From Dysgonomonas mossii DSM 22836 (lineage in GTDB: Bacteria; Bacteroidota; Bacteroidia; Bacteroidales; Dysgonomonadaceae): a stretch of DNA of 64,000 nucleotides. Within the stretch, counting starts at the first letter, position 1. Each line of letters opens with the position of its first letter. The translations under genes and the position numbers were made by a program. The stretch is from positions 343,995 to 407,994 of the forward strand of contig NZ_GL892005.1 of NCBI RefSeq assembly GCF_000213575.1. Reading direction: 5' to 3'. The notes beneath the pieces are model-generated. The model saw nothing but the letters and a program-made list of their open reading frames with translations. It was not told the origin of the DNA and made no database searches. Shown in pieces: positions 27,767 through 38,625 of this stretch.

Positions 27767-28318
27767 ATGTCACGGGAGGCAGAAGAACAACTTATAGAGA
27801 GGCTGCACGAGCCCAAAACTCAGCAGGCGGCATTTGCCGAGCTGGTGAAGGAATATAGTGAGCCTTTGTATTGGCAGATACGAAAGATCGTATTGAGCCA
27901 TGATGATACGGATGATGTCTTGCAAAATACATTTATAAAAGTATGGACAAGTATCGAAAATTTCCGGGGAGACTCCAAATTGTCTACCTGGCTTTATCGT
28001 ATAGCTGTTAATGAGGCTATTACATTCCTGAATAAACAGCGATCTTTAAACAATGTTTCGATAGATGATGCCGATACGTTTTTATTGGGTAAACTCGAAG
28101 GTGATGAGTACTTTGACGGCGACGAAGCTCAACTGAAACTACAGAAAGCAATTCTTCTTTTACCGGAGAAGCAGCGTATTGTTTTCAATATGAAATATTT
28201 TGATGAAATGAAATATGAAGATATGTCCGATATTTTAGAAACCTCTGTGGGTGCGCTAAAAGCGTCTTATCATCATGCGGTAAAAAAAATAGAGGAATTT
28301 TTAACAACGGAGAATTAA
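27767..28318 (+). CDS. ECF-type RNA polymerase sigma factor
   Basis: A 183-residue sigma-70 family protein with only regions 2 and 4, as in extracytoplasmic-function sigma factors. Region 2 includes DDTDDVLQNTFIKVWTSIENF (given in parts: DVLQNTFIKVW and FRGDSKLSTWLYRIAVNEA). Region 4 has LPEKQRIVFNMKYFDEMKYEDMS and the helix-turn-helix SVGALKASYHHAVKKIEEFL. The next gene encodes a short single-helix membrane protein likely to be its anti-sigma factor, and a Spy-like protein follows, an arrangement typical of envelope-stress control. The inducing signal is unknown. Confidence 0.92.
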   Translation: MSREAEEQLIERLHEPKTQQAAFAELVKEYSEPLYWQIRKIVLSHDDTDDVLQNTFIKVWTSIENFRGDSKLSTWLYRIAVNEAITFLNKQRSLNNVSIDDADTFLLGKLEGDEYFDGDEAQLKLQKAILLLPEKQRIVFNMKYFDEMKYEDMSDILETSVGALKASYHHAVKKIEEFLTTEN

Positions 28319-28376
28319 ACCTTTTATCTAAATAATAGTCTATACTACAGATAAGGACTCTAAAGATTAAACAATC

Positions 28377-28742
28377 ATGTTGGATAATTTTGACAAAAGC
28401 AAAAAACCTTTTAAAGTTCCCGAAAATTACTTCGAGAATTTTAATAACAGGATAATGGATCAACTGCCTTCTAAAGAAGAACCAAAGGTAAAGATTGTTC
28501 CGTTGTGGAGGAAGGTATTGCCTTGGACAGCAGCTGCGGCAGCAATTGTTGGTATTTTGTTCACAGTTGGTGTTTTTGACAAAAACAATATGCCTTCGGA
28601 TAAACAATATGCCAATCAGAAGACGGATATGACCGAAGAAACGATTGCATATCCCAGTGCTCAGGACGAAGAGGATTACTATCTTTTTTTGCAGGATGAG
28701 GTAAGAAAATCTCAATTTAAGGAAATGTTATATAACTATTAA
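28377..28742 (+). CDS. Putative anti-sigma factor, single-pass membrane protein
   Basis: A 121-residue protein with one transmembrane helix at about residues 49-67 (LPWTAAAAAIVGILFTVGVF). The N-terminal cytosolic part contains FKVPENYFENFNNRIMDQLP, a motif seen in small Bacteroidetes proteins encoded after ECF sigma factors. The periplasmic tail is short and acidic. There is no zinc-binding ZAS motif (HxxxCxxC), so the assignment as anti-sigma rests on position, topology and the PENYF motif. It starts 58 bases after the sigma gene and ends two bases before the next gene. Confidence 0.65.
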   Translation: MLDNFDKSKKPFKVPENYFENFNNRIMDQLPSKEEPKVKIVPLWRKVLPWTAAAAAIVGILFTVGVFDKNNMPSDKQYANQKTDMTEETIAYPSAQDEEDYYLFLQDEVRKSQFKEMLYNY

Positions 28743-28744
28743 TA

Positions 28745-29233
28745 ATGAATATCGATATGAAGTTGAAAAATATTCTGGTTTTGTTATTGCTGTTCTGTTT
28801 TACGTTTTCAGTTGCAGCCCAGAATAGACCAAGACAAGGTGGAGGACGGTTCGATATACAAGCATTCAATCAAAAGAAAGCAGAGTATTTAAAAAAAGAA
28901 CTAAACTTAACAGATGCGGAAGCTAAAGCATTTTTGCCATTGGAGGCAGAGTTTTCAATGAAAAAATATGAAGCTAACCGTGAAGCACGAAGAGAGACTC
29001 GCGAACTGAAGCGTAAGAAAGACAAAACAGATGCAGACTATAAAAGAATTGTTCAATTGAATCTGGAATCGGAACAAAGGGATTCTCAGTTACAAATCGA
29101 ATATTATAAGAAGTTTGCAAAAGTATTGTCGGCTGAGAAGTTGGAAAAGTATAGGTCAGTTGATATTCGATTCAAGGAAGACGAATTGAAGCGCCACAGG
29201 GAAAGATTCAATTCCGGTAGAGATTCGGATTAA
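28745..29233 (+). CDS. Spy/CpxP-like periplasmic protein
   Basis: A 162-residue exported protein. The signal peptide is MKLKNILVLLLLFCFTFSVAAQ (within residues 5-26), and the mature part is helical and highly charged, with the motif NLTDAEAKAFLPLEAEF that resembles the LTPEQ-type motif of Spy/CpxP/ZraP proteins. The rest is rich in Lys, Arg and Glu and likely forms a long helical hairpin. Such proteins chaperone or sense misfolded envelope proteins and often sit behind ECF sigma genes. It follows the putative anti-sigma gene by 2 bases, which supports one envelope-stress operon. Confidence 0.7.
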   Translation: MNIDMKLKNILVLLLLFCFTFSVAAQNRPRQGGGRFDIQAFNQKKAEYLKKELNLTDAEAKAFLPLEAEFSMKKYEANREARRETRELKRKKDKTDADYKRIVQLNLESEQRDSQLQIEYYKKFAKVLSAEKLEKYRSVDIRFKEDELKRHRERFNSGRDSD

Positions 29234-29257
29234 AAGTAAAAAAATAATGACATAAAG

Positions 29258-29288
29258 TTTGGTTTATTGCAAATAATGTATACTTTTG
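29258..29288 (+). promoter_or_regulatory. Predicted promoter of the his leader/hisG transcript
   Basis: TTTG at 29258-29261 (the -33 element) and TACTTTTG at 29281-29288 (the -7 element TAnnTTTG) are separated by 19 bases, the consensus spacing for the Bacteroidetes primary sigma factor. Transcription should start near 29295, about 13 bases before the leader-peptide ATG. Confidence 0.7.
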
Positions 29289-29307
29289 CTTTTGTAAAAA
29301 TAAAATT

Positions 29308-29358
29308 ATGAGCAATAAATTTCATCATCATCATTATAGTGTTACTCCCGTTGGGTAA
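29308..29358 (+). CDS. hisL: Histidine-operon leader peptide (four consecutive His codons)
   Basis: A 16-codon reading frame, MSNKFHHHHYSVTPVG, ending in TAA at 29356-29358. Four CAT codons in a row (29323-29334) lie ahead of hisG in the same direction, and a terminator hairpin follows. This is the layout of a ribosome-dependent histidine attenuator: shortage of charged tRNA-His should stall the ribosome on the CAT run. The stop codon region (29350-29360) can pair with the terminator's 5' arm. The peptide is too short for ordinary gene calling. Confidence is high in the layout, lower in the exact RNA structures. Confidence 0.82.
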   Translation: MSNKFHHHHYSVTPVG

Positions 29359-29408
29359 GTAAGTATATTGATGTGGTGTTTGCCAAAATATAGAAGAGCT
29401 TGCCTGAT
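29350..29408 (+). promoter_or_regulatory. Candidate antiterminator helix of the his attenuator
   Basis: Bases 29350-29360 (GTTGGGTAAGT) can pair with 29398-29408 (GCTTGCCTGAT) over 11 positions, five of them G-U wobbles. This pairing consumes the 5' arm of the terminator at 29395-29405, so the two structures exclude each other. The 29350-29360 arm covers the leader stop codon and would be masked by a ribosome finishing the peptide. I inferred this by eye; no folding energies were computed. Confidence 0.55.
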
Positions 29409-29427
29409 AGAGGTGAGCTCTTTTTTT
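29395..29427 (+). terminator. Attenuator terminator before hisG
   Basis: An 11-bp stem (29395-29405 with 29411-29421, two G-U pairs; outer part AGAGCT/AGCTCT) with a five-base loop and a run of seven T. It lies between the His leader peptide and hisG, 33 bases before the hisG ATG. Confidence 0.8.
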
Positions 29428-29459
29428 GTTGCTGGAAAATAATATAAAATTAATATATC

Positions 29460-30314
29460 ATGGTATTAAGAATTGCTGTTCAGTCGAAAGGTCGGCTATT
29501 TGAGGAAACGATGGCGCTTTTGCAAGAAGCCGGTATAAAACTGAATAATATTAAGCGCACGCTGCTTATTCCTGCGAAAGACTTCCCTGTAGAGATTCTC
29601 TTTCTGCGTGACGATGATATCCCGCAAGCTGTAGCTACAGGAGTTGCCGATATCGGTGTGGTAGGAGAAAATGAATATAAGGAAAAAGCCGAGGCTGCGG
29701 ATGTCGTAAAAGGCTTAGGGTTTAGCAAATGCCGCTTATCGCTGGCTATTCCAAAGGATGAAAAATACGAGGGTGTGCAATGGTTTGAAGGCAAGAAGAT
29801 AGCCACATCTTATCCTCATATCTTAAACCAATATTTAGCAGAGCAGGGTATTAAATCAGATATTCACATTATTACAGGATCGGTAGAAATTTCGCCTAGT
29901 ATAGGTCTCTCAGATGCTATTTTTGATATAGTGAGCTCCGGCGGAACATTGGTGAGTAATCGTTTGAAAGAGGTTGAGGTTGTGATGCAATCGCAAGCCT
30001 TACTCATAGCCACTAAAAACTTACCACAGGAAAAAAAAGATATACTTGACGAACTAATATTCAGGATAGAAGCTGTTCAGAGTGCAGAAGGGAAAAAATA
30101 TGTACTTCTGAATGCACCCGAAGATAAGCTTGAAGAAATATTTGATATCTTGCCGGGGATGAGGAGTCCTACAGTTACCCCACTAGCTACAAAGGGTTGG
30201 TGTTCTGTTCAGTCGGTTATCGAAGATAAACGTTTTTGGGAAGTTATTACCAAATTAAAAGCATGTGGTGCTGAAGGTATTATTGTATTACCTATAGAAA
30301 AAATGATTTTATGA
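29460..30314 (+). CDS. hisG: ATP phosphoribosyltransferase HisG (long form)
   Basis: A 284-residue enzyme for the first step of histidine synthesis (ATP + PRPP to phosphoribosyl-ATP). It opens LRIAVQSKGRLFEETMALL, and the catalytic domain contains ADIGVVGENEY and the phosphate-binding SVEISPSIGLSDAIFDIVSSGGTL (split here: VEISPSIGLSDAIFD and SSGGTL). The last 75 residues (GMRSPTVTPLATKGWCSV to the end) are the regulatory ACT-like domain, so this is the long, feedback-inhibited type that does not need HisZ. It is the first structural gene after the His attenuator. Its stop overlaps the next GNAT gene by four bases. Confidence 0.95.
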   Translation: MVLRIAVQSKGRLFEETMALLQEAGIKLNNIKRTLLIPAKDFPVEILFLRDDDIPQAVATGVADIGVVGENEYKEKAEAADVVKGLGFSKCRLSLAIPKDEKYEGVQWFEGKKIATSYPHILNQYLAEQGIKSDIHIITGSVEISPSIGLSDAIFDIVSSGGTLVSNRLKEVEVVMQSQALLIATKNLPQEKKDILDELIFRIEAVQSAEGKKYVLLNAPEDKLEEIFDILPGMRSPTVTPLATKGWCSVQSVIEDKRFWEVITKLKACGAEGIIVLPIEKMIL

Positions 30315-30838
30315 TAGAGGTTTCAGATGATATTGTATTATACCCATTGTCTGTAGATGACATCTTTAAGATATTTAATACGCTCAACAACGAGAGAGAA
30401 TATATGCGTGAATGGTTACCGTTTGTGGATGCTACAAAAGAGATAGAAGATACGGGTAACTATGTGAGATATGTATTGCAGACTGCCGACAAACAATTTA
30501 CTATATACTATAAGGATCAGTTTGTAGGACTGATTGGTTTTAAAGATACGGATACAGATAATAAGAAAACAGAAATAGGATACTGGTTGTCTCAATATGC
30601 TCAAGGTAAAGGCATCATGATACAGTCGGTTGCTAAACTTATAGAACATGCTTTCGGTGAATTAGATATGAATCGCATCCAGATAAAAGTCGCTGTAGGT
30701 AATGATAAGAGCCGTCGTATTCCCGAGAAGCTTGGGTTTCAGATGGAAGGGATAGAACGTGATGGGGAATTGTTGGTAGATAATGTGTTTACTGACATAG
30801 CTGTTTACAGCCTGTTGAGGAAAGAATATAAGAAGTAA
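30311..30838 (+). CDS. GNAT-family acetyltransferase (RimJ/RimL-like) inside the his operon
   Basis: A 175-residue GNAT protein of the RimL-like branch. Hallmarks are LNNEREYMREWLPFVDATK near the N-terminus, TEIGYWLSQYAQGKGIMIQSV (acetyl-CoA loop) and the C-terminal MNRIQIKVAVGNDKSRRIPEKLGFQMEGIERD (visible as RIQIKVAVGNDKSRRIPEKL). It overlaps hisG by ATGA and precedes hisD by two bases, so it is translated within the his transcript. Ribosomal-protein or small-molecule acetylation are family activities; no link to histidine synthesis is known to me. Confidence 0.88.
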   Translation: MIEVSDDIVLYPLSVDDIFKIFNTLNNEREYMREWLPFVDATKEIEDTGNYVRYVLQTADKQFTIYYKDQFVGLIGFKDTDTDNKKTEIGYWLSQYAQGKGIMIQSVAKLIEHAFGELDMNRIQIKVAVGNDKSRRIPEKLGFQMEGIERDGELLVDNVFTDIAVYSLLRKEYKK

Positions 30839-30840
30839 TT

Positions 30841-32127
30841 ATGCAGATAATAAAATACCCTTTACGTAGTCAGTGGGCCGAAATACTCACACGCCCTGTT
30901 TTCGATACTTCGGCATTGAACAGCACAGTCAGTTCTGTCCTTGATGATATAAAAGAAAGAGGAGATCAGGCTGTCTTTGAATATGAAGAAAAATTCGATA
31001 AGGTGAAACTTCTCTCTCTGGCTGTTTCTGCAGAAGAAATAGCAGAAGCCGAGAATTTAGTTTCTCAGGAATTAAAGGAAGCCATTCGACAAGCAAAAGA
31101 GAATATCGAGATATTTCATCGTAGTCAGATATTTGAGACGAAAAAAATAGAGACAAGCAAAGGTGTCATTTGTTGGCAAAAAGCCGTCGCTATTGAAAAA
31201 GTAGGGCTTTATATTCCGGGGGGGACAGCTCCTTTGTTTTCTACAGTGCTGATGCTTGCTATTCCGGCTAAAATTGCAGGTTGTAAAGAGATTGTTCTTT
31301 GCTCGCCTCCCAATAAAGAAGGAAATATACATCCGGCTATATTGTATGCAGCAAAAGAAGCCGGTGTAGACAAAGTGTTTAAGGCGGGAGGAATACAGGC
31401 TATTGGAGCAATGGCTTACGGTACGGAATCTATACCGAAAGTATATAAAATATTCGGGCCTGGAAACCAATATGTAATGGCTGCGAAACAGCTTGTAAGC
31501 CTCAGAGATGTAGCGATAGATATGCCGGCAGGGCCATCCGAGGTACAAGTGATTGCAGATGAGACATCCATACCTGCATTTGTTGCGGCCGATTTATTGT
31601 CGCAGGCAGAGCATGGAGCAGATAGTCAGGTGATATTAACAACAACCAGTGAATCTTTTATCTCCGAAGTTTTACATGAGATAGAGCGACAATTGTTTGA
31701 ACTTCCTCGTCGCGAGATTGCACAGAAGGCATTAGAAAACAGTAAGCTAATACTATTAAAAAATAATCGAGAAATTATAGATATAACCAACGAATATGCA
31801 CCCGAACACCTTATTATAGAAACAGCAGACTATGCAGATATTGCAGACGAAATAGTAAATGCAGGTTCTGTTTTTCTTGGAAATTATACGCCGGAAAGTG
31901 CCGGAGACTATGCTTCAGGGACAAATCATACGTTGCCTACTAATGGTTATGCGAAGGCTTATAGCGGCGTTAATCTGGATAGTTTTGTGAAAAAGATAAC
32001 TTTCCAGAAGATTACAAAAGATGGTATTCATAATCTTGGAAAAACGATTGAAGTAATGGCCGAGAACGAACAATTGTTTGCTCATAAAAATGCAGTAACT
32101 TTACGGCTAAAGGACAAAGGAAAATGA
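30841..32127 (+). CDS. hisD: Histidinol dehydrogenase
   Basis: A 428-residue zinc- and NAD-dependent enzyme for the last two steps of histidine synthesis (histidinol to histidine). Family features are the nucleotide region VGLYIPGGTAPLFSTVLML, IFGPGNQYVMAAKQLV, the zinc-ligand segment DLLSQAEHGADSQVIL and EYAPEHLII with the catalytic Glu-His pair, and the C-terminal SGTNHTLPTNGYAKAYSGV. The length is standard. The stop overlaps the following lipoprotein gene by four bases. It belongs to the attenuator-controlled his transcript. Confidence 0.95.
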   Translation: MQIIKYPLRSQWAEILTRPVFDTSALNSTVSSVLDDIKERGDQAVFEYEEKFDKVKLLSLAVSAEEIAEAENLVSQELKEAIRQAKENIEIFHRSQIFETKKIETSKGVICWQKAVAIEKVGLYIPGGTAPLFSTVLMLAIPAKIAGCKEIVLCSPPNKEGNIHPAILYAAKEAGVDKVFKAGGIQAIGAMAYGTESIPKVYKIFGPGNQYVMAAKQLVSLRDVAIDMPAGPSEVQVIADETSIPAFVAADLLSQAEHGADSQVILTTTSESFISEVLHEIERQLFELPRREIAQKALENSKLILLKNNREIIDITNEYAPEHLIIETADYADIADEIVNAGSVFLGNYTPESAGDYASGTNHTLPTNGYAKAYSGVNLDSFVKKITFQKITKDGIHNLGKTIEVMAENEQLFAHKNAVTLRLKDKGK

Positions 32128-32474
32128 AATCACTTAGTTTATTAGTTACAATCGGACTATTGGTAAGCTGTTCGGCTTTTGAGAAAACAATCAATAAAGC
32201 TCAGTATGTAAATGCCGACAAGGTAATCTACGAAAAATATTTTGGGGAGAGAGTTGAAATACGAAACAAGGCGCAAATAGCCAAGTTAGTTGATATCATA
32301 GGTTCGGCGCAGAAGGAAGCTGTAGACTTTATACCGAAAGATCAATTTGTATTTATTCGAAGTAAAGATACTATCTCAATACAGCGAAACGGAGCATTAT
32401 TAAGGGACGGAAATGGTACATATCGCTTAGGTGCTTACATGTCGACAGAACTAAATAAACTGTTAGAAAAATGA
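32124..32474 (+). CDS. Small putative lipoprotein within the his operon
   Basis: A 116-residue protein starting MKSLSLLVTIGLLVSCSAFE, with a lipobox LVSC and Cys16 as the likely lipidated residue. The mature part is a mixed alpha/beta domain of about 100 residues with no motif I recognise. It overlaps hisD and the following GNAT gene, each by four bases, so it is firmly part of the transcript. Its presence in a biosynthetic operon is unexplained. Function unknown; location is predicted to be the inner or outer membrane, periplasmic side. Confidence 0.7.
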   Translation: MKSLSLLVTIGLLVSCSAFEKTINKAQYVNADKVIYEKYFGERVEIRNKAQIAKLVDIIGSAQKEAVDFIPKDQFVFIRSKDTISIQRNGALLRDGNGTYRLGAYMSTELNKLLEK

Positions 32475-32902
32475 TTCAGACCAGAATTATAAAGTATGGT
32501 ACAGCAGACTATGACAAGATGGTTGCTCTTCGTTATAAAATATTGAGAGCGCCTCTGGGACTTACATTTTCAGCAGAATATCTGGAAAAGGAGAAAGAGG
32601 ATATTCTCTGTGTTTGTGAAAATGAAGGGCAGATTGTAGGTTGTTGCATTCTTACGCCAGCAGATAAAACGGTAGTTCAATTGCGTCAAATGGCAGTAGA
32701 TGATTCTGTTCAGAAAAAAGGAATAGGTGCAAAGTTGCTCTTGTTCGCCGAAGAGTCTGCAAAAGAAAACGGATTTGATAAGATTGTACTGCATGCCCGA
32801 AAGGTTGCGATAGGATTCTACCTGAAATATAATTATGATATAGTTGGCGATGAGTTTGAAGAAGTAGGTATTCCTCATTTTGAAATGCAGAAAATACTCT
32901 AA
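32471..32902 (+). CDS. GNAT-family N-acetyltransferase
   Basis: A 143-residue small GNAT protein. The N-terminal YDKMVALRYKILRAPLGL and the acetyl-CoA loop VDDSVQKKGIGAKLLLFAEES (shown as QKKGIGAKLLLFAE) are typical of the ElaA-like/YitI-like group, as is the end YNYDIVGDEFEEVGIPH. It overlaps the upstream lipoprotein gene by four bases. It is the second GNAT gene in the his transcript. The substrate is unknown. Confidence 0.85.
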   Translation: MIQTRIIKYGTADYDKMVALRYKILRAPLGLTFSAEYLEKEKEDILCVCENEGQIVGCCILTPADKTVVQLRQMAVDDSVQKKGIGAKLLLFAEESAKENGFDKIVLHARKVAIGFYLKYNYDIVGDEFEEVGIPHFEMQKIL

Positions 32903-32948
32903 ACATACCAAGAAAAATATTCGTAAAAAGACATATATAAATTGAATA

Positions 32949-33404
32949 ATGATGGAAAACGAAAAAAAACAAGTACTGGAAACAGTATCAAAATATATAG
33001 ATATTACATTAACTCCTTTTGGAAAATCTCAACGTACAGTTATAGATATAGAAAAGAGAGACCCGATGTATGATGGTAATGGCGTTGTTTACATGCTGTC
33101 TATATTCGAGAAAGGAGAATTGGTGAATAACCGTATCGGTACTTACATGGTTCTGTTGAATAAAGGTGATCAGGCTGGGTTTCATGAGCATGGGACTAAA
33201 AAAGAACAAGAGCTATATGTACTGGTTCATGGCGAAGGTGAATATATAGAACGTGAAGGATTGGACAAAATTACTAGAAAGTTCAACCTGAAAAAAGGAA
33301 ACGTAACATCTATCCAGGGAGATAATAATTATCACTCTATAATCAATACAGGAGACGAGCCTCTGATTGTATTTGTTGTGACTACATATCAGCCTAATAT
33401 ATAA
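32949..33404 (+). CDS. Cupin-domain protein
   Basis: A 151-residue protein with a single cupin fold. The metal-binding pattern is visible as GFHEHGTKKEQELYVLVHGEGEY (in parts: FHEHG, E, then LVHGEGEY) and the second motif as DNNYHSIINTGDEPLIVFVV, giving the usual His-His-Glu...His set. It begins with two adjacent ATG codons; the first is used here. It follows the GNAT gene by 46 bases in the same direction, probably in the his transcript. Cupins of this size can be isomerases, dioxygenases or ligand-binding proteins. No function assigned. Confidence 0.78.
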   Translation: MMENEKKQVLETVSKYIDITLTPFGKSQRTVIDIEKRDPMYDGNGVVYMLSIFEKGELVNNRIGTYMVLLNKGDQAGFHEHGTKKEQELYVLVHGEGEYIEREGLDKITRKFNLKKGNVTSIQGDNNYHSIINTGDEPLIVFVVTTYQPNI

Positions 33405-33492
33405 ATAACTTTAACTCATAGAGCCTTTTGTTAAAATATTATTTATATTTATTGGAGTTAATTGATTGTCTAATTATAAAATCTGTTTTATC

Positions 33493-34071
33493 ATGAATAA
33501 AAGAATATTGATGCTAGCGGGCGATTTTGTTGAGGATTACGAATTGATGGTTCCTTATCAGGCACTGGTAAGTGTAGGATTCCATGTAGATGTAGTATGT
33601 CCGGGGAAGAAAGCCGGAGAACAGGTTGCTACAGCAATACATGATTTTGTGGGATTTCAGACTTATGCAGAGCTGAGAGGTCATAACTTCACATTGAACA
33701 AGAGTTTCGATAATGTAAAACTTGAAGATTACGCAGGATTGTATATTACAGGAGGACGAGCTCCTGAATATATTCGTCTTGATCCTAAAGTATTAGAATA
33801 TACAAAGTATTTCTTCGAAAAAAATCTGCCTGTTGCAGCTATTTGCCACGGTATTCAGGTGCTTACTGCCGCAGATGTAGTTAGAGGAAAGACGCTTACT
33901 TGCTATGTAGCTGTAGGGCCTGAAGTAAAGTTGGCCGGCGGTAATTACAAAGATATTCCCGCTACCGAAGCTATTACAGACGGTAATCTGACTACCTCCC
34001 CTGCATGGCCCGGACATCCGGCTATACTAAAAGAGTTTTATAAACTTCTTGGGGTTAAAATTGAATTGTAA
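33493..34071 (+). CDS. DJ-1/PfpI-family protein (protease I-like)
   Basis: A 192-residue PfpI-type protein starting MNKRILMLAGDFVEDYELMV. The ATG at 33493 matches the family start; a TTG further upstream is not needed. The nucleophile elbow is VAAICHGIQVL with C118, the acidic partner is E14 in DFVEDYE, and the closing EAITDGNLTTSPAWPGHP is the typical PfpI end. Family members are deglycases, chaperones or proteases. It lies between the cupin and hisC genes, with a terminator-like hairpin between it and hisC. Confidence 0.85.
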   Translation: MNKRILMLAGDFVEDYELMVPYQALVSVGFHVDVVCPGKKAGEQVATAIHDFVGFQTYAELRGHNFTLNKSFDNVKLEDYAGLYITGGRAPEYIRLDPKVLEYTKYFFEKNLPVAAICHGIQVLTAADVVRGKTLTCYVAVGPEVKLAGGNYKDIPATEAITDGNLTTSPAWPGHPAILKEFYKLLGVKIEL

Positions 34072-34094
34072 ATTATAGAAGTATAAGGGAATGG

Positions 34095-34133
34095 GAGTGC
34101 TCAAAAGTGTATTCTTCTTTTTTGAGCACTCTT
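34095..34133. terminator. Terminator-like hairpin between DJ-1 and hisC genes
   Basis: A perfect 12-bp stem (GAGTGCTCAAAA at 34095-34106 with TTTTGAGCACTC at 34120-34131) with a 13-base loop. The following T content is modest, so termination may be partial. If it works, hisC and hisB need their own promoter or depend on read-through. Confidence 0.55.
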
Positions 34134-34219
34134 ATTACTCTAATATATAGCAGTGCTCGCTGCGTAGTTAAGTTAAATAAATAAGATAAAAAGATATCTA
34201 AACTAAACAGTTTAAAGGA

Positions 34220-35248
34220 ATGAATTTACAGCAGCTCGTGCGCAAAAATGTATGGAATATGAAGCCTTATTCATCGGCTAGAGATGAATTTAAAGGGGAT
34301 GCATCAGTGTTTTTAGATGCGAACGAAAATCCACTGAATGATAAATATAATCGCTACCCCGATCCTTTACAATGGTGTTTGAAACAAAAAATAGCTAAAG
34401 TAAAAAATATAGCTCCCGAAAATATTTTCTTAGGCAATGGAAGTGATGAGCCTATTGATTTGGTTATTCGTATTTTTTGCGAACCTCGCATTGATAATAT
34501 TGTGGCCGTAGACCCTACTTACGGAATGTATCAGGTTTGTGCAGAGGTGAACGATGTAGAGTATCGGAAAGTATTGCTGAACGAAAACTTCGACCTGGAT
34601 GCTCAGAAACTGCTTGAAAAAACAGATTGTAATACAAAACTGATATTTTTATGCTCTCCTAACAATCCTACAGGGAACTTGTTAAGCAGAGAAGAGATAA
34701 AAAAGGTATTAGATTCTTTTGAGGGTATTGTAGTTGTCGACGAGGCTTATATCGATTTTGCTTCTGAAGCGACATGGCTGAATGATCTTGATAAATATCC
34801 TAATCTTATAATTCTGCAAACATTCTCTAAAGCATGGGGGTTGGCTGCCGTACGTCTGGGTATGGCTTTTGCTTCGGCTGAGATAATTAAGCTGTTCAAT
34901 AAAGTTAAGTATCCATACAATGTAAATATTCTGACTCAAAACTTTGTTGGAGATGAATTAGACAAACTTGAATTAAGAAAGCAGTGGATTGCTACCTTGC
35001 TCGAAGGACGAAATTATCTGATAAATGAGTTGCCAAAATTACCTTTTGTAGAGAAAATATATCCCACGGATGCCAATTTTATATTGGTAAAGGTTGAGGA
35101 TGCCAATAGCCTGTACAAGCAATTAGCAGATAAAGGTGTAATTGTTCGCAACAGGAACTCGGTTTCCTTGTGCGCCGGCTGTTTGCGTATAACAGTAGGT
35201 ACTGATAAGGAAAATGAGATGTTAATTAAAACTTTGCGAACGTTATAA
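34220..35248 (+). CDS. hisC: Histidinol-phosphate aminotransferase
   Basis: A 342-residue PLP-dependent class I/II aminotransferase converting imidazole-acetol phosphate to histidinol phosphate. It opens with [15 protein letters not shown], as in HisC. The PLP lysine lies in [15 protein letters not shown], the Asn of [13 protein letters not shown] and the Asp of [11 protein letters not shown] contact the cofactor. The length is standard. A ribosome-binding AAAGGA lies 7 bases before the ATG. It is followed by hisB 58 bases downstream. Confidence 0.94.
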
Positions 35249-35306
35249 ATATAAACATATCAATAGAGAGGTAAATCCGATCTAAAAGCATATTCAATAT
35301 ATTATA

Positions 35307-36422
35307 ATGAAAAAGAAAGCTCTATTTATAGACCGTGATGGGACTTTGGTTGTAGAACCACCGATAGATTATCAACTGGATAACCTCGATAAACTTGAGT
35401 TTTATCCAAAGGTTTTTCGGAACCTTTATTTTATCCGAAAGAATCTCGATTTTGAATTTGTGATGGTTACTAATCAAGACGGATTGGGTACTCCATCCTT
35501 TCCCGAGGATACATTTTGGCCGGCACATAACAAAATGCTTAAGACGCTGGACGGAGAAGGAATCGTATTTGATGATATCCTTATTGATAAAAGTTTTCCT
35601 GAAGATAATGCCCCAACACGAAAACCCCGTACAGGTATGTTAGGCAAATATATGACAGGTGATTATGATCTTGAGCAATCTTTTGTGATTGGAGACAGGC
35701 AAACAGATGTTGAGTTAGCAAAAAATCTAGGTTGTAAAGCTATTTTTATGCAAGATGAGTTTGTTTTACCTGATGAACTAAAGGATATATGTGTGCTTCA
35801 AACTACCGATTGGGATGTCATTTCTGAGTTTTTGTTTGCCGGAGAGCGCAAAGCAGAGGTAAAAAGAACGACCAAAGAAACAGATATATATGTTGCACTC
35901 AATCTGGACGGAAAAGGACAATGTCAGATATCTACAGGTTTAGGTTTTTTCGATCATATGCTTGAGCAAATAGGAAAGCATTCGGGGATGGATCTTACCA
36001 TACAAGTAAAAGGTGATCTGCATGTAGATGAGCATCATACAATAGAAGATACCGCTATTGCTTTAGGTGAAGCGATATATAAGGCATTAGGAGATAAAAG
36101 AGGTATAGAACGTTATGGCTATAGCTTGCCTATGGATGATTGTTTGTGTTCCGTTGCGCTTGACTTTGGTGGTCGGGCTTGGTTGGTTTGGGATGCAGAA
36201 TTTCATCGCGAGAGAGTAGGGGATATGCCTACCGAAATGTTCCTGCACTTTTTCAAGTCTTTGAGCGATTCAGCGAAAATGAACCTCAATATAAAGGCAG
36301 AAGGCGCGAATGAACATCACAAAATAGAAGGAATATTCAAGGCATTGGCCAGAGCTTTGAAGATGGCGAAGAAGAGAGATATCTTCAATTATGAACTACC
36401 TTCTACCAAAGGCGTGATTTGA
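35307..36422 (+). CDS. hisB: Bifunctional histidinol-phosphatase / imidazoleglycerol-phosphate dehydratase
   Basis: A 371-residue fusion. The N-terminal half is a HAD phosphatase ([15 protein letters not shown] at residues 4-18 with catalytic Asp residues, [18 protein letters not shown] near 125-142). The C-terminal half is the dehydratase, with the metal-binding repeats [14 protein letters not shown] and [16 protein letters not shown], and a final [20 protein letters not shown]. It performs the sixth and eighth steps of histidine synthesis. It closes this cluster; hisH, hisA, hisF, hisI and hisE are not in the window, so they must lie elsewhere. Confidence 0.95.
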
Positions 36423-36506
36423 CTATTTAATGTGAAATTGATGCAATAAATAAAGTAAAAGCCTGTTTTTAAAGGTACATTAACTACTCATTTTTCATTT
36501 TTTGTG

Positions 36507-36514
36507 TAAGTTTG
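36507..36514 (+). promoter_or_regulatory. Very close -7 box upstream of the porin gene
   Basis: TAAGTTTG matches TAnnTTTG and ends only 5 bases before the ATG at 36520. If used, transcription would start at or next to the start codon, giving an almost leaderless mRNA. No -33 TTG is visible at the right distance. Confidence 0.35.
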
Positions 36515-36519
36515 CACCA

Positions 36520-38625
36520 ATGAAAAAATATACAGTATTTCTTTTCTTATTTCTTTTCGCTTCTCTTGTTGCGGAAGCACAAAACAAGAAAGCTTTACAG
36601 TCTCCCGCAATAGTGGAGAAAGCGGATTCTATATCTGCAAGTCTTGGTAAGTTGCCTCCGAGTGGACGAAAAATAGATACAGTAAAAGTTAACGTTCCCA
36701 ATATATATGTGTGGAAAATAACACCCCGTTTGGGAGAACGTATATTTATTCCTCGCGATTCGGCTGTAATAGATTTTCATAAAACTATGTTAGTAGATGG
36801 AAAAGGTGTAGCCATTGGCTATTTGGGCAATGTAGGCTCTCCTTTACAATCCAAAATATTCTTTGAACGCCCCGAACCTTCCCGTTTTATTTTTCAAGAT
36901 CCGGTACGTGCATGGCGAAAAGGGCCGGAGGATCAGGTGTTCTATAATACTAAAGTGCCTTACTCTGAGATTAAATATCAAAGTGGAGGTGGCGGAGAAA
37001 GTGCGGAAAATCGTTTTCAGGGAGAGATATCTATGAATATGGGTAAAAAACTGAATGTCGGTTTTGATTTTGACTATATCTATTCTCGTGGATTTTACAA
37101 TTCTTTGTCAAATAAAGGAGTAAGTTATGACTTCTATGCCAGCTATATAGGTGACAAATATAAGATGCATGCTTACTTCCAGAATAATAATTTTACTATT
37201 ATCGAGAATGGTGGTATATCCGATACATTGTACATTTCAAACCCTGACCATCCCAATGTAGTAAATAATGGAAACTTCAAAGGGAGTTCGTTGGACATTC
37301 CTACACGAATGCAGGATACTTGGAACAGACTCAGAGGTCGTAATCTGTATGTGACTAACAGATATGATCTGGGTGATGATACAGAAACATATCCTGTAAA
37401 TGATAGCGTGATGGGAACACGCAAAAAGAAGGACTATGTTTCGTTAGCAAGCGTGATTTTTACAACGCACTATACGGATCAACGTCGCAGGTTTAATTCA
37501 AACTATAGCAATATCGCGAATGTCTATACTCCACAGCTTTGGAATGGGGAAAAGGGTTGGACTACTCTTTCGGATCCGAAGTATGAAGCGAATATTGATG
37601 ATTATATGTCATATTATTCATTCAAGAATACATTGGCGTTGGCTATGAATGAAGGCTTCCGAAAATGGACGAAATTTGGTTTAACGGCGTTCATTGAACA
37701 TGATCTGCGTAAATATTCCATGCCCTTTTTAGGCATTGAAGAATCAGGGGCTATGTATGGTCTTCCCGGTGCATCGATGAAGGAAAGTGAATATTCATTG
37801 CTTGTAGGAGGAGTCTTAACGAAAGAGAAGGGAAAGTTTTTAAGATACAGGGCTACAGCCGAAAAAGATTTACATAATAGCGATTACAGGCTCGAAGGAG
37901 AAATTACTACTCGATTGAATTTCAGTAATAAAGACTTTTCGGTAAAAGCTAATGCTTATATAAAGAATATAAGCCCAAGTTTTTTTCAGAACAATTTTTC
38001 ATCTAAGTATTGGAACTGGAAGGATATGGGGTTGAAAGATACCCGTCGTGTTTATATAGGCGGAGAGATTGTTTTTCCAGAACTGTCATTTTCTCAGACT
38101 CGGATAAGTGGAGGTGTTGAAAATATAACAGGTCTTATATATTATAATCAGGAGAAGAGAATAGCTCAAAGCAATGAGGATATACATGTGATAGCTTTAC
38201 GCCTCGATCAGAATTTCAGATCCGGGATTTTTCACTGGGATAATCAACTTGTTTTCCAACAGGCAGATAGTGAAGAGGCTTTACCCTTGCCTAAATGGAG
38301 TTTATATTCAAATATATACCTGACCACTAAGCTGGCCAAAGTATTAACTCTACAATTGGGTGCTGATGCTTATATTCACTCAAAATATTATATGCCGGGC
38401 TATGAGCCTTTGACTATGCAGTTTTATAATCAACAAGATATGAAACTGGGAGAATTTCCTGTTGTAAGTGCTTATCTGAACCTTCATCTAAAATATACTC
38501 GCTTTTTTGTTATGATGTATAATATTGCCGAAGGAATGGGGAATGGACAGTCGTTCTCTTTATATCGTTATCCGGTAAATCCTCGGGTTTTAAAATTAGG
38601 AATTTCTTGGCAATTCAATAATTAG
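36520..38625 (+). CDS. Putative outer-membrane porin (Porin_10-like)
   Basis: A 701-residue protein that I recognise as a Bacteroidetes putative porin. Start at MKKYTVFLFLFLFASLVAEAQ, a clear signal peptide; the frame is open six codons further upstream, without a plausible start. The mature protein has a short N-terminal region (SPAIVEKADSIS, KITPRLGERIFIP) and then a long beta-rich segment with alternating hydrophobic residues, aromatic girdles and turns such as FDFDYIYSRGFYNSLSNKG. It ends in the typical barrel terminus RVLKLGISWQFNN. The next gene, a solute-binding-like protein, begins 7 bases later, suggesting joint expression. The transported solute is unknown. Confidence 0.75.
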   Translation: MKKYTVFLFLFLFASLVAEAQNKKALQSPAIVEKADSISASLGKLPPSGRKIDTVKVNVPNIYVWKITPRLGERIFIPRDSAVIDFHKTMLVDGKGVAIGYLGNVGSPLQSKIFFERPEPSRFIFQDPVRAWRKGPEDQVFYNTKVPYSEIKYQSGGGGESAENRFQGEISMNMGKKLNVGFDFDYIYSRGFYNSLSNKGVSYDFYASYIGDKYKMHAYFQNNNFTIIENGGISDTLYISNPDHPNVVNNGNFKGSSLDIPTRMQDTWNRLRGRNLYVTNRYDLGDDTETYPVNDSVMGTRKKKDYVSLASVIFTTHYTDQRRRFNSNYSNIANVYTPQLWNGEKGWTTLSDPKYEANIDDYMSYYSFKNTLALAMNEGFRKWTKFGLTAFIEHDLRKYSMPFLGIEESGAMYGLPGASMKESEYSLLVGGVLTKEKGKFLRYRATAEKDLHNSDYRLEGEITTRLNFSNKDFSVKANAYIKNISPSFFQNNFSSKYWNWKDMGLKDTRRVYIGGEIVFPELSFSQTRISGGVENITGLIYYNQEKRIAQSNEDIHVIALRLDQNFRSGIFHWDNQLVFQQADSEEALPLPKWSLYSNIYLTTKLAKVLTLQLGADAYIHSKYYMPGYEPLTMQFYNQQDMKLGEFPVVSAYLNLHLKYTRFFVMMYNIAEGMGNGQSFSLYRYPVNPRVLKLGISWQFNN

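Follow-up and report, generated by a model that had tools for sequence, protein, structure and literature searches.

Bacteria can adjust a biosynthetic operon to the supply of its own product, and the stretch of DNA analysed here raises the question of how this might be done for histidine in Dysgonomonas mossii DSM 22836. The window, which is the whole stretch of 64,000 nucleotides, carries hisG (29460..30314, ATG at 29460), identified by PF01634 and PF08029 and taken to be the regulated gene, and all of the features described below lie on its + strand. The preliminary description read the region upstream of hisG as a complete histidine attenuator in a Bacteroidales genome, and the conserved His leader, terminator and antiterminator that we describe support this main interpretation. 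The promoter, read from the sequence, consists of a -33 element TTTG (29258..29261) and a -7 element TACTTTTG (29281..29288) with a spacing of 19 bases; TACTTTTG fits TAnnTTTG, which we take to be the Bacteroidota-type -7 consensus. The leader ORF, MSNKFHHHHYSVTPVG*, has 16 codons (29308..29358, from the ATG at 29308 to the TAA ending at 29358), with four CAT codons in a row at 29323-29334 and no Trp codon. A terminator scan located an intrinsic terminator at 29392..29427, comprised of a hairpin of 14 pairs (29392-29424) and a T tract to 29427; its core, AGAGCTTGCCT/AGGTGAGCTCT, is 11 bp and is followed by seven T (29421-29427), and it tops the 8 sites listed for 28700-37000 in both pairs and G-C pairs. 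All these parts (the promoter pair and its spacing, the run of CAT codons, the 11-bp terminator and the hisG start) had been named in the preliminary description and were confirmed. As a whole, 29290-29440 folds better than 200 of 200 dinucleotide shuffles (z -5.3).

The genes that follow hisG on the same strand are, in order, a GNAT gene, hisD, four small genes, hisC (so named from its family and position) and hisB. The GNAT acetyltransferase gene between hisG and hisD occupies 30311-30838, and the small genes between hisD and hisC (32124-34071) include one more GNAT. Directly 5' of the his promoter, 27767-29233 holds a sigma-70 family (ECF-like) gene and then two small genes. In the window's genome hisA, hisF and a hisIE-like ORF form a separate cluster (L330, G000:C2:630386 onwards) with no His-rich ORF within 1.49 kb upstream, so no second attenuator was found there.

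To examine the spread of the leader we collected the sequences upstream of hisG from relatives of the window, from the class Bacteroidia and from named genomes, a total of 219 stretches of which 200 were distinct; the hisG matches listed covered 113, 89 and 171 genomes, from which 70, 69 and 38 loci were used. A leader was defined as an ORF of 7-45 codons with its stop 50-300 bases before hisG and at least three His in six codons. Conservation of the His codons among relatives had been proposed as a check on the preliminary description, and by this definition hisG has a short His-rich ORF ahead of it in 168 of the 200 distinct loci, compared with a mean of 3.15 over 20 rounds of shuffling. When the opposite strand was searched over the whole stretch, a His-rich ORF occurred in 15/200 loci, and the same rule applied to other residues gave 82/200 for Leu (the closest), 66 for Ser and 63 for Ile. 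The leader is found in 21/23 loci of the genus, 45/52 of the order, 43/62 of the named genomes and 59/63 of the class Bacteroidia outside the window's order; it is present in 48 of the 53 sampled families, of which at least f41 (represented by L040) was probably scored in error. An additional sample gave a leader in 12/12 class loci and in 13/26 loci from the rest of the phylum, some of them weak (L255, L259), and in 0/8 of the loci with the most divergent HisG (L249-L252, L262 and L264-L266). Comparison of the loci shows that the His residues of the leader ORF are kept while the rest of the peptide is variable. Three loci of one phylum-level family (L256, L257 and L258) have very His-rich leaders, for example MKRTKLHISHPHHDVHHLHQGHHHA.

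The two exceptions within the genus have the leader farther 5', and an additional 250-430 bases separate their terminator from hisG. They are L003 (record L090, Dysgonomonas sp. 521) and L006 (record L072, D. hofstadii); both leaders are intact, and the extra sequence of L003 contains inverted repeats. By our definition the leader is absent from 32/200 loci, and in ten leaderless loci (L034, L101, L110, L116, L119, L131, L147, L149, L205 and L207) a long frame ends just before hisG, so another gene may come first at these loci.

With a relaxed definition of the leader, which probably admits some ORFs that are not leaders (e.g. L040, L102, L106, L125, L126, L146 and L156), a terminator was detected in 159 of 174 loci, and the detector overlooked terminators that are visible in L113 and L145. 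Nine class-level loci (L203, L204, L206, L208, L209, L220, L170, L173 and L174) have a convincing His leader, no detectable terminator and a strong small hairpin at or beside the leader stop codon; their output is possibly translational or Rho-dependent. L158 resembles these nine and has a weak terminator-like hairpin. From the 159 loci with a terminator, 152 lay within our spacing and energy limits, and 136 of these had an antiterminator helix (B:D, below) of -7.9 kcal/mol or better. Conservation of the promoter was assessed in the 136 loci: TAnnTTTG lies no more than 110 bases 5' of the His codons in 126 (9.4 when shuffled), and TTG is found 17-21 bases 5' of the -7 box in 98 (0.7 when shuffled).

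A search with a model of the genus element (R1) showed how specific the element is to hisG. In the window's genome there was one significant match, at hisG (7.7e-17), and the next (0.15) was the complement of the same hairpin. Strong matches were present in 23/25 genus genomes, and all 24 strong matches were at hisG; G001 (51% complete) had none and G006 a marginal one (0.0097), and neither of these genomes has a hisG match. Among the Rfam families none reached its gathering score for the window element, the weak matches including RF01692 at 23 bits against a cut-off of 49, and no T-box model reached its gathering score in the window. The enteric His_leader, RF00514, likewise stayed below its gathering score there, was absent from the matches at E <= 10 for 29230-29480 and exceeded the cut-off in none of the 61 genomes of relatives. 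Its sub-threshold matches in 4/61 genomes, none of them at hisG, were rejected as terminator look-alikes; the one in the window's genome sits between two convergent ORFs, and the other three were judged by position only.

The antiterminator is formed by strand B (29350..29360), which spans the stop codon (29356-29358), and strand D (29398..29408), which overlaps the 5' arm of the terminator, so that the two helices are mutually exclusive. When the RNA up to 29339 was left out, as if the His codons were masked, and the transcript was ended at 29410, the 11-bp helix 29350-29360:29398-29408 folded, with -16.3 kcal/mol in all, as the preliminary description had proposed. Over 152 loci the B:D energy averaged -11.59 kcal/mol for a locus's own strands, -9.5 for strands swapped between loci (0/2000 permutations) and -7.3 for shuffled ones; with one locus per family (44 families) own strands gave -11.0 and swapped ones -8.33 kcal/mol (0/2000 permutations). 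Because this comparison was restricted to the surroundings of the leader stop, the search was repeated without restriction. The best partner of the terminator 5' arm then started between -12 and +6 of the stop in 117/152 loci (16% of shuffles) and between -24 and +10 in 136/152 (30% of shuffles). The placement of the left arm over the stop codon, another claim of the preliminary description, therefore holds in the window and is conserved far beyond the genus. Strand B starts a median of 19 bases past the first base of the last His codon, and fewer than 12 in 16/136 loci. Covarying base pairs had also been suggested as a check, with a divided outcome: within the genus B:D is 92.7% paired, compared with 13-50% when the strands are slid, and its covariation does not go beyond shuffles (91/500 reach the score), the columns varying too little; across the 44 families the comparison of own with swapped strands supports the pairing.

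A third helix, A:C, emerged from folding and from RNAalifold, which, unguided on 24 genus sequences, joined the His codons to the spacer that separates the stop from the terminator. Strand A (29323..29333) lies in the His codons, and strand C (29364..29378), which swaps between loci also support, lies between B and the terminator. The pairs in the window are 29323-29327 with 29374-29378 and 29329-29333 with 29369-29373, and an extension joins 29335-29338 with 29364-29367. Since A:C encloses B, the strand order A-B-C-D is interleaved with respect to B:D; by the window's coordinates the connectors are 16 bases from A to B, 3 to 8 from B to C and 19 from C to D, and no base is shared between strands. 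Across 136 loci the leader stretch that is paired by the spacer overlaps the His codons in 112, and the 3' end of A:C lies a median of 13 bases before the terminator.

The preliminary description favoured a simpler two-state design with the stop codon as the switch, and this part of it was not supported. In such a design B and the stop codon would be the sole switch, and A:C would be a by-product of CAT repeats meeting ATG/GTG-rich spacers. CAT repeats do pair readily with GATG and GTG, and the A:C signal is uneven: only 69/136 loci (12/37 in the named set) lie more than 1 sd beyond dinucleotide shuffles of C, and covariation inside the genus is weak (31/500 shuffles reach the score). The pairing is nevertheless locus-specific: over 136 loci a locus's own strands gave -10.5 kcal/mol, shuffled ones -7.1 and swapped ones -9.0 (0/1000 permutations), and with one locus per family (35 families) the values were -8.57, -6.35 and -7.52 kcal/mol (4/2000 permutations). 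Several loci, moreover, have long A:C helices that run past the His codons (L192, for example, with -22.9 kcal/mol), and ribosome-free RNA lacking A:C would often form the antiterminator, while the computed B:D pairing of free RNA is low (0.19, below). We consider the two-state explanation unlikely.

Two other candidate features were rejected. The classic local hairpin (1:2), in which B pairs with the codons that follow the His run, appears in the genus fold, but over 136 loci it reaches -6.12 compared with -6.25 for shuffled sequences; it is slightly better than swaps (1/1000). The AARATAT-like stretch before the terminator (29384-29393) was considered as a general pause signal, and it is found in 22/23 genus loci and 11/113 elsewhere.

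Computing the fold of the alternative states, which had also been suggested in the preliminary description, gave a preference for each state. For each of the 136 loci the transcript was ended just after D and the ribosome was assumed to cover 14 bases from the A-site codon. Free RNA gave a mean B:D pairing of 0.19; a ribosome placed on the first His codon raised it to 0.79 and one on the last to 0.83, and one at the stop lowered it to 0.01. The corresponding values for the window were 0.00, 0.97, 0.98 and 0.00. Stalling raised B:D pairing by more than 0.2 in 108/136 loci, and a strict switch test (free < 0.3, stalled > 0.6) was passed by 85/136. In complete transcripts the terminator was favoured in every state (mean 0.91-0.95, window 0.98). 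Folding alone consequently does not show the switch, and because the finished terminator wins all three states at equilibrium, the choice would have to fall during transcription, with control that is kinetic.

These calculations were made with ViennaRNA, which scores no pseudoknots, so A:C and B:D are mutually exclusive by construction and might coexist in the RNA. If they did, A:C could aid the antiterminator or set RNA polymerase pausing and would offer no protection against it. The strands do stand in pseudoknot order with no shared base, and the connectors given above for the window belong to that order. In the window, however, A:C extends inward, and the inner hairpin sequesters B (in folding without pseudoknot scoring), and we regard coexistence as distinctly unlikely. 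Finally, action of another kind (translational attenuation acting on hisG, control by Rho, or an ORF that is incidental to a T-box or protein-sensing leader) is highly improbable for this locus, given the strong terminator in the window, the lack of a T-box or other Rfam family at gathering score and an ORF that is conserved for its His residues while the remaining peptide varies, although the nine terminator-less His leaders with a hairpin at or beside the stop suggest that other outputs may exist in the phylum.

The reading that we prefer is that the hisG operon is very probably controlled by ribosome-mediated transcription attenuation with an interleaved A-B-C-D-E layout, as predicted from sequence and folding. 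Several features by which an attenuator is recognized are found at the locus: a predicted short leader ORF with a run of codons for the amino acid of the pathway, an intrinsic terminator between this leader and the first gene, an antiterminator that excludes the terminator, and a geometry in which, by folding with the assumed 14-base footprint, a stalled ribosome exposes B and a stop-bound one masks it. Transcription would start a few bases 3' of the -7 box, so that the leader ATG would lie near the 5' end. When histidyl-tRNA is scarce, the ribosome would stall on the CAT run, covering A and leaving C free; B would then pair with D while the 3' arm of the terminator has yet to be transcribed, and RNA polymerase would continue into hisG. 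With ample histidine the ribosome would reach the stop and cover B, and the terminator would form. In RNA with no ribosome, or after its release, A:C would form once C is made, B would be enclosed and the terminator would form; by shutting in the antiterminator strand, A:C would make untranslated RNA favour termination as well. A:C may double as a pause hairpin that lets the ribosome catch up, as its median distance of 13 bases from the terminator would allow. The sequence comparison shows that the parts exist, are conserved and can pair, and folding supplies the preference for each state; from these data we infer how the operon is regulated in the cell and what A:C does there.

In the enteric his attenuator (RF00514) the position of the ribosome picks the fold, and there are three ribosome states. 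That system shares with ours the run of His codons in a leader peptide and the intrinsic terminator before hisG, and the model proposed here would have the same three states with another strand order: the enteric leader uses sequential neighbouring helices, whereas here the four strands A-B-C-D, with A:C interleaved with B:D, come ahead of the terminator's 3' arm. The E. coli trp attenuator has its stop codon inside the first hairpin, and it shares a codon-strand hairpin, an antiterminator and a terminator; its strand 2 pairs with both the codon strand and strand 3, while the present layout has separate strands, C and B, for these two roles.

There is also a likeness to the Bacteroid-trp RNA (RF01692), also a Bacteroidota peptide leader, with its stop in the antiterminator strand and a codon strand that pairs past the stop. 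It differs in carrying Trp codons; the his leader has His codons and no Trp codon, and scores well under the RF01692 cut-off. The window's genome contains a Bacteroid-trp leader (L151, 49.9 bits) with the peptide MNLLLTNTYWWWHSQLKKS*, which includes WWW; its stop region is complementary to the loop and 3' arm of the terminator, and its Trp-codon strand pairs past the stop. Among the RF01692 loci, of which 28/30 were analysable, the stop region prefers the terminator loop and 3' arm over the 5' arm in 28/28, and pairing of the codon strand to the spacer beyond the stop reaches -11.1, compared with -8.7 when shuffled (more than 1 kcal/mol better in 20/28). Taken together, the trp and his pairing data suggest that the antiterminator is tied to the stop codon in both leaders, which grip different arms of the terminator.

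A literature search turned up no description of the interleaved layout or of a his leader found throughout the phylum; his operons of Bacteroidetes may be among those covered by Lopatovskaya et al. in 2010, reportedly in a large survey of amino-acid attenuators. Flavobacterium psychrophilum gave strong hints of leader-peptide attenuation 5' of amino-acid operons, and it has a structured element 5' of hisG that is conserved in Flavobacteriaceae and has no Rfam hit (PMC9723704, 2021); the main text of that work gives no His codons, helices or spread past the family. Leader-peptide attenuation and a hisG element had thus already been flagged in Flavobacteriaceae, and the breadth and the predicted layout are what is added here. 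Candidate his attenuators with three to five consecutive His codons and with a terminator and antiterminator 5' of his operons are known from 17 genomes of Firmicutes, where they are presented as independent acquisitions, with no Bacteroidota in the main text (PMC9413887). The amino-acid attenuator motifs of RNA family libraries are taken, in the passage concerned, as gamma-proteobacterial with few transfers (PMC3766115). Some 5' UTR sORFs of B. thetaiotaomicron were found reminiscent of attenuation leaders, his not being named in that passage (PMC7366714), and an account of the his genes of the superphylum mentions attenuation, where it treats the subject, for enterics only (PMC8305728). Bacteroid-trp is listed in PMC2864571, and Bacteroidota his leaders are not described in the relevant sections of PMC2965389 and PMC4833913.

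As a tentative proposal, though by no means an implausible one, a common ancestor of much of Bacteroidota may have run its his genes by an interleaved attenuator, in which a protecting helix (codon and post-stop strands) and an antiterminator (stop-codon strand and terminator arm) have no strand in common and are mutually exclusive through topology; the trp leader would be built on this plan too, and some lineages would since have swapped the terminator for a hairpin on the leader stop codon. The interleaved layout, if it holds, solves the switching problem of attenuators in another way. A leader in 48 of 53 families would make attenuation an old and ordinary means of amino-acid sensing in a dominant phylum of the gut and the environment. 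The his leader would also test whether the coupling of transcription and translation in Bacteroidota is close enough for attenuation, and it would provide a clean means of making gene expression in these organisms follow the supply of histidine.
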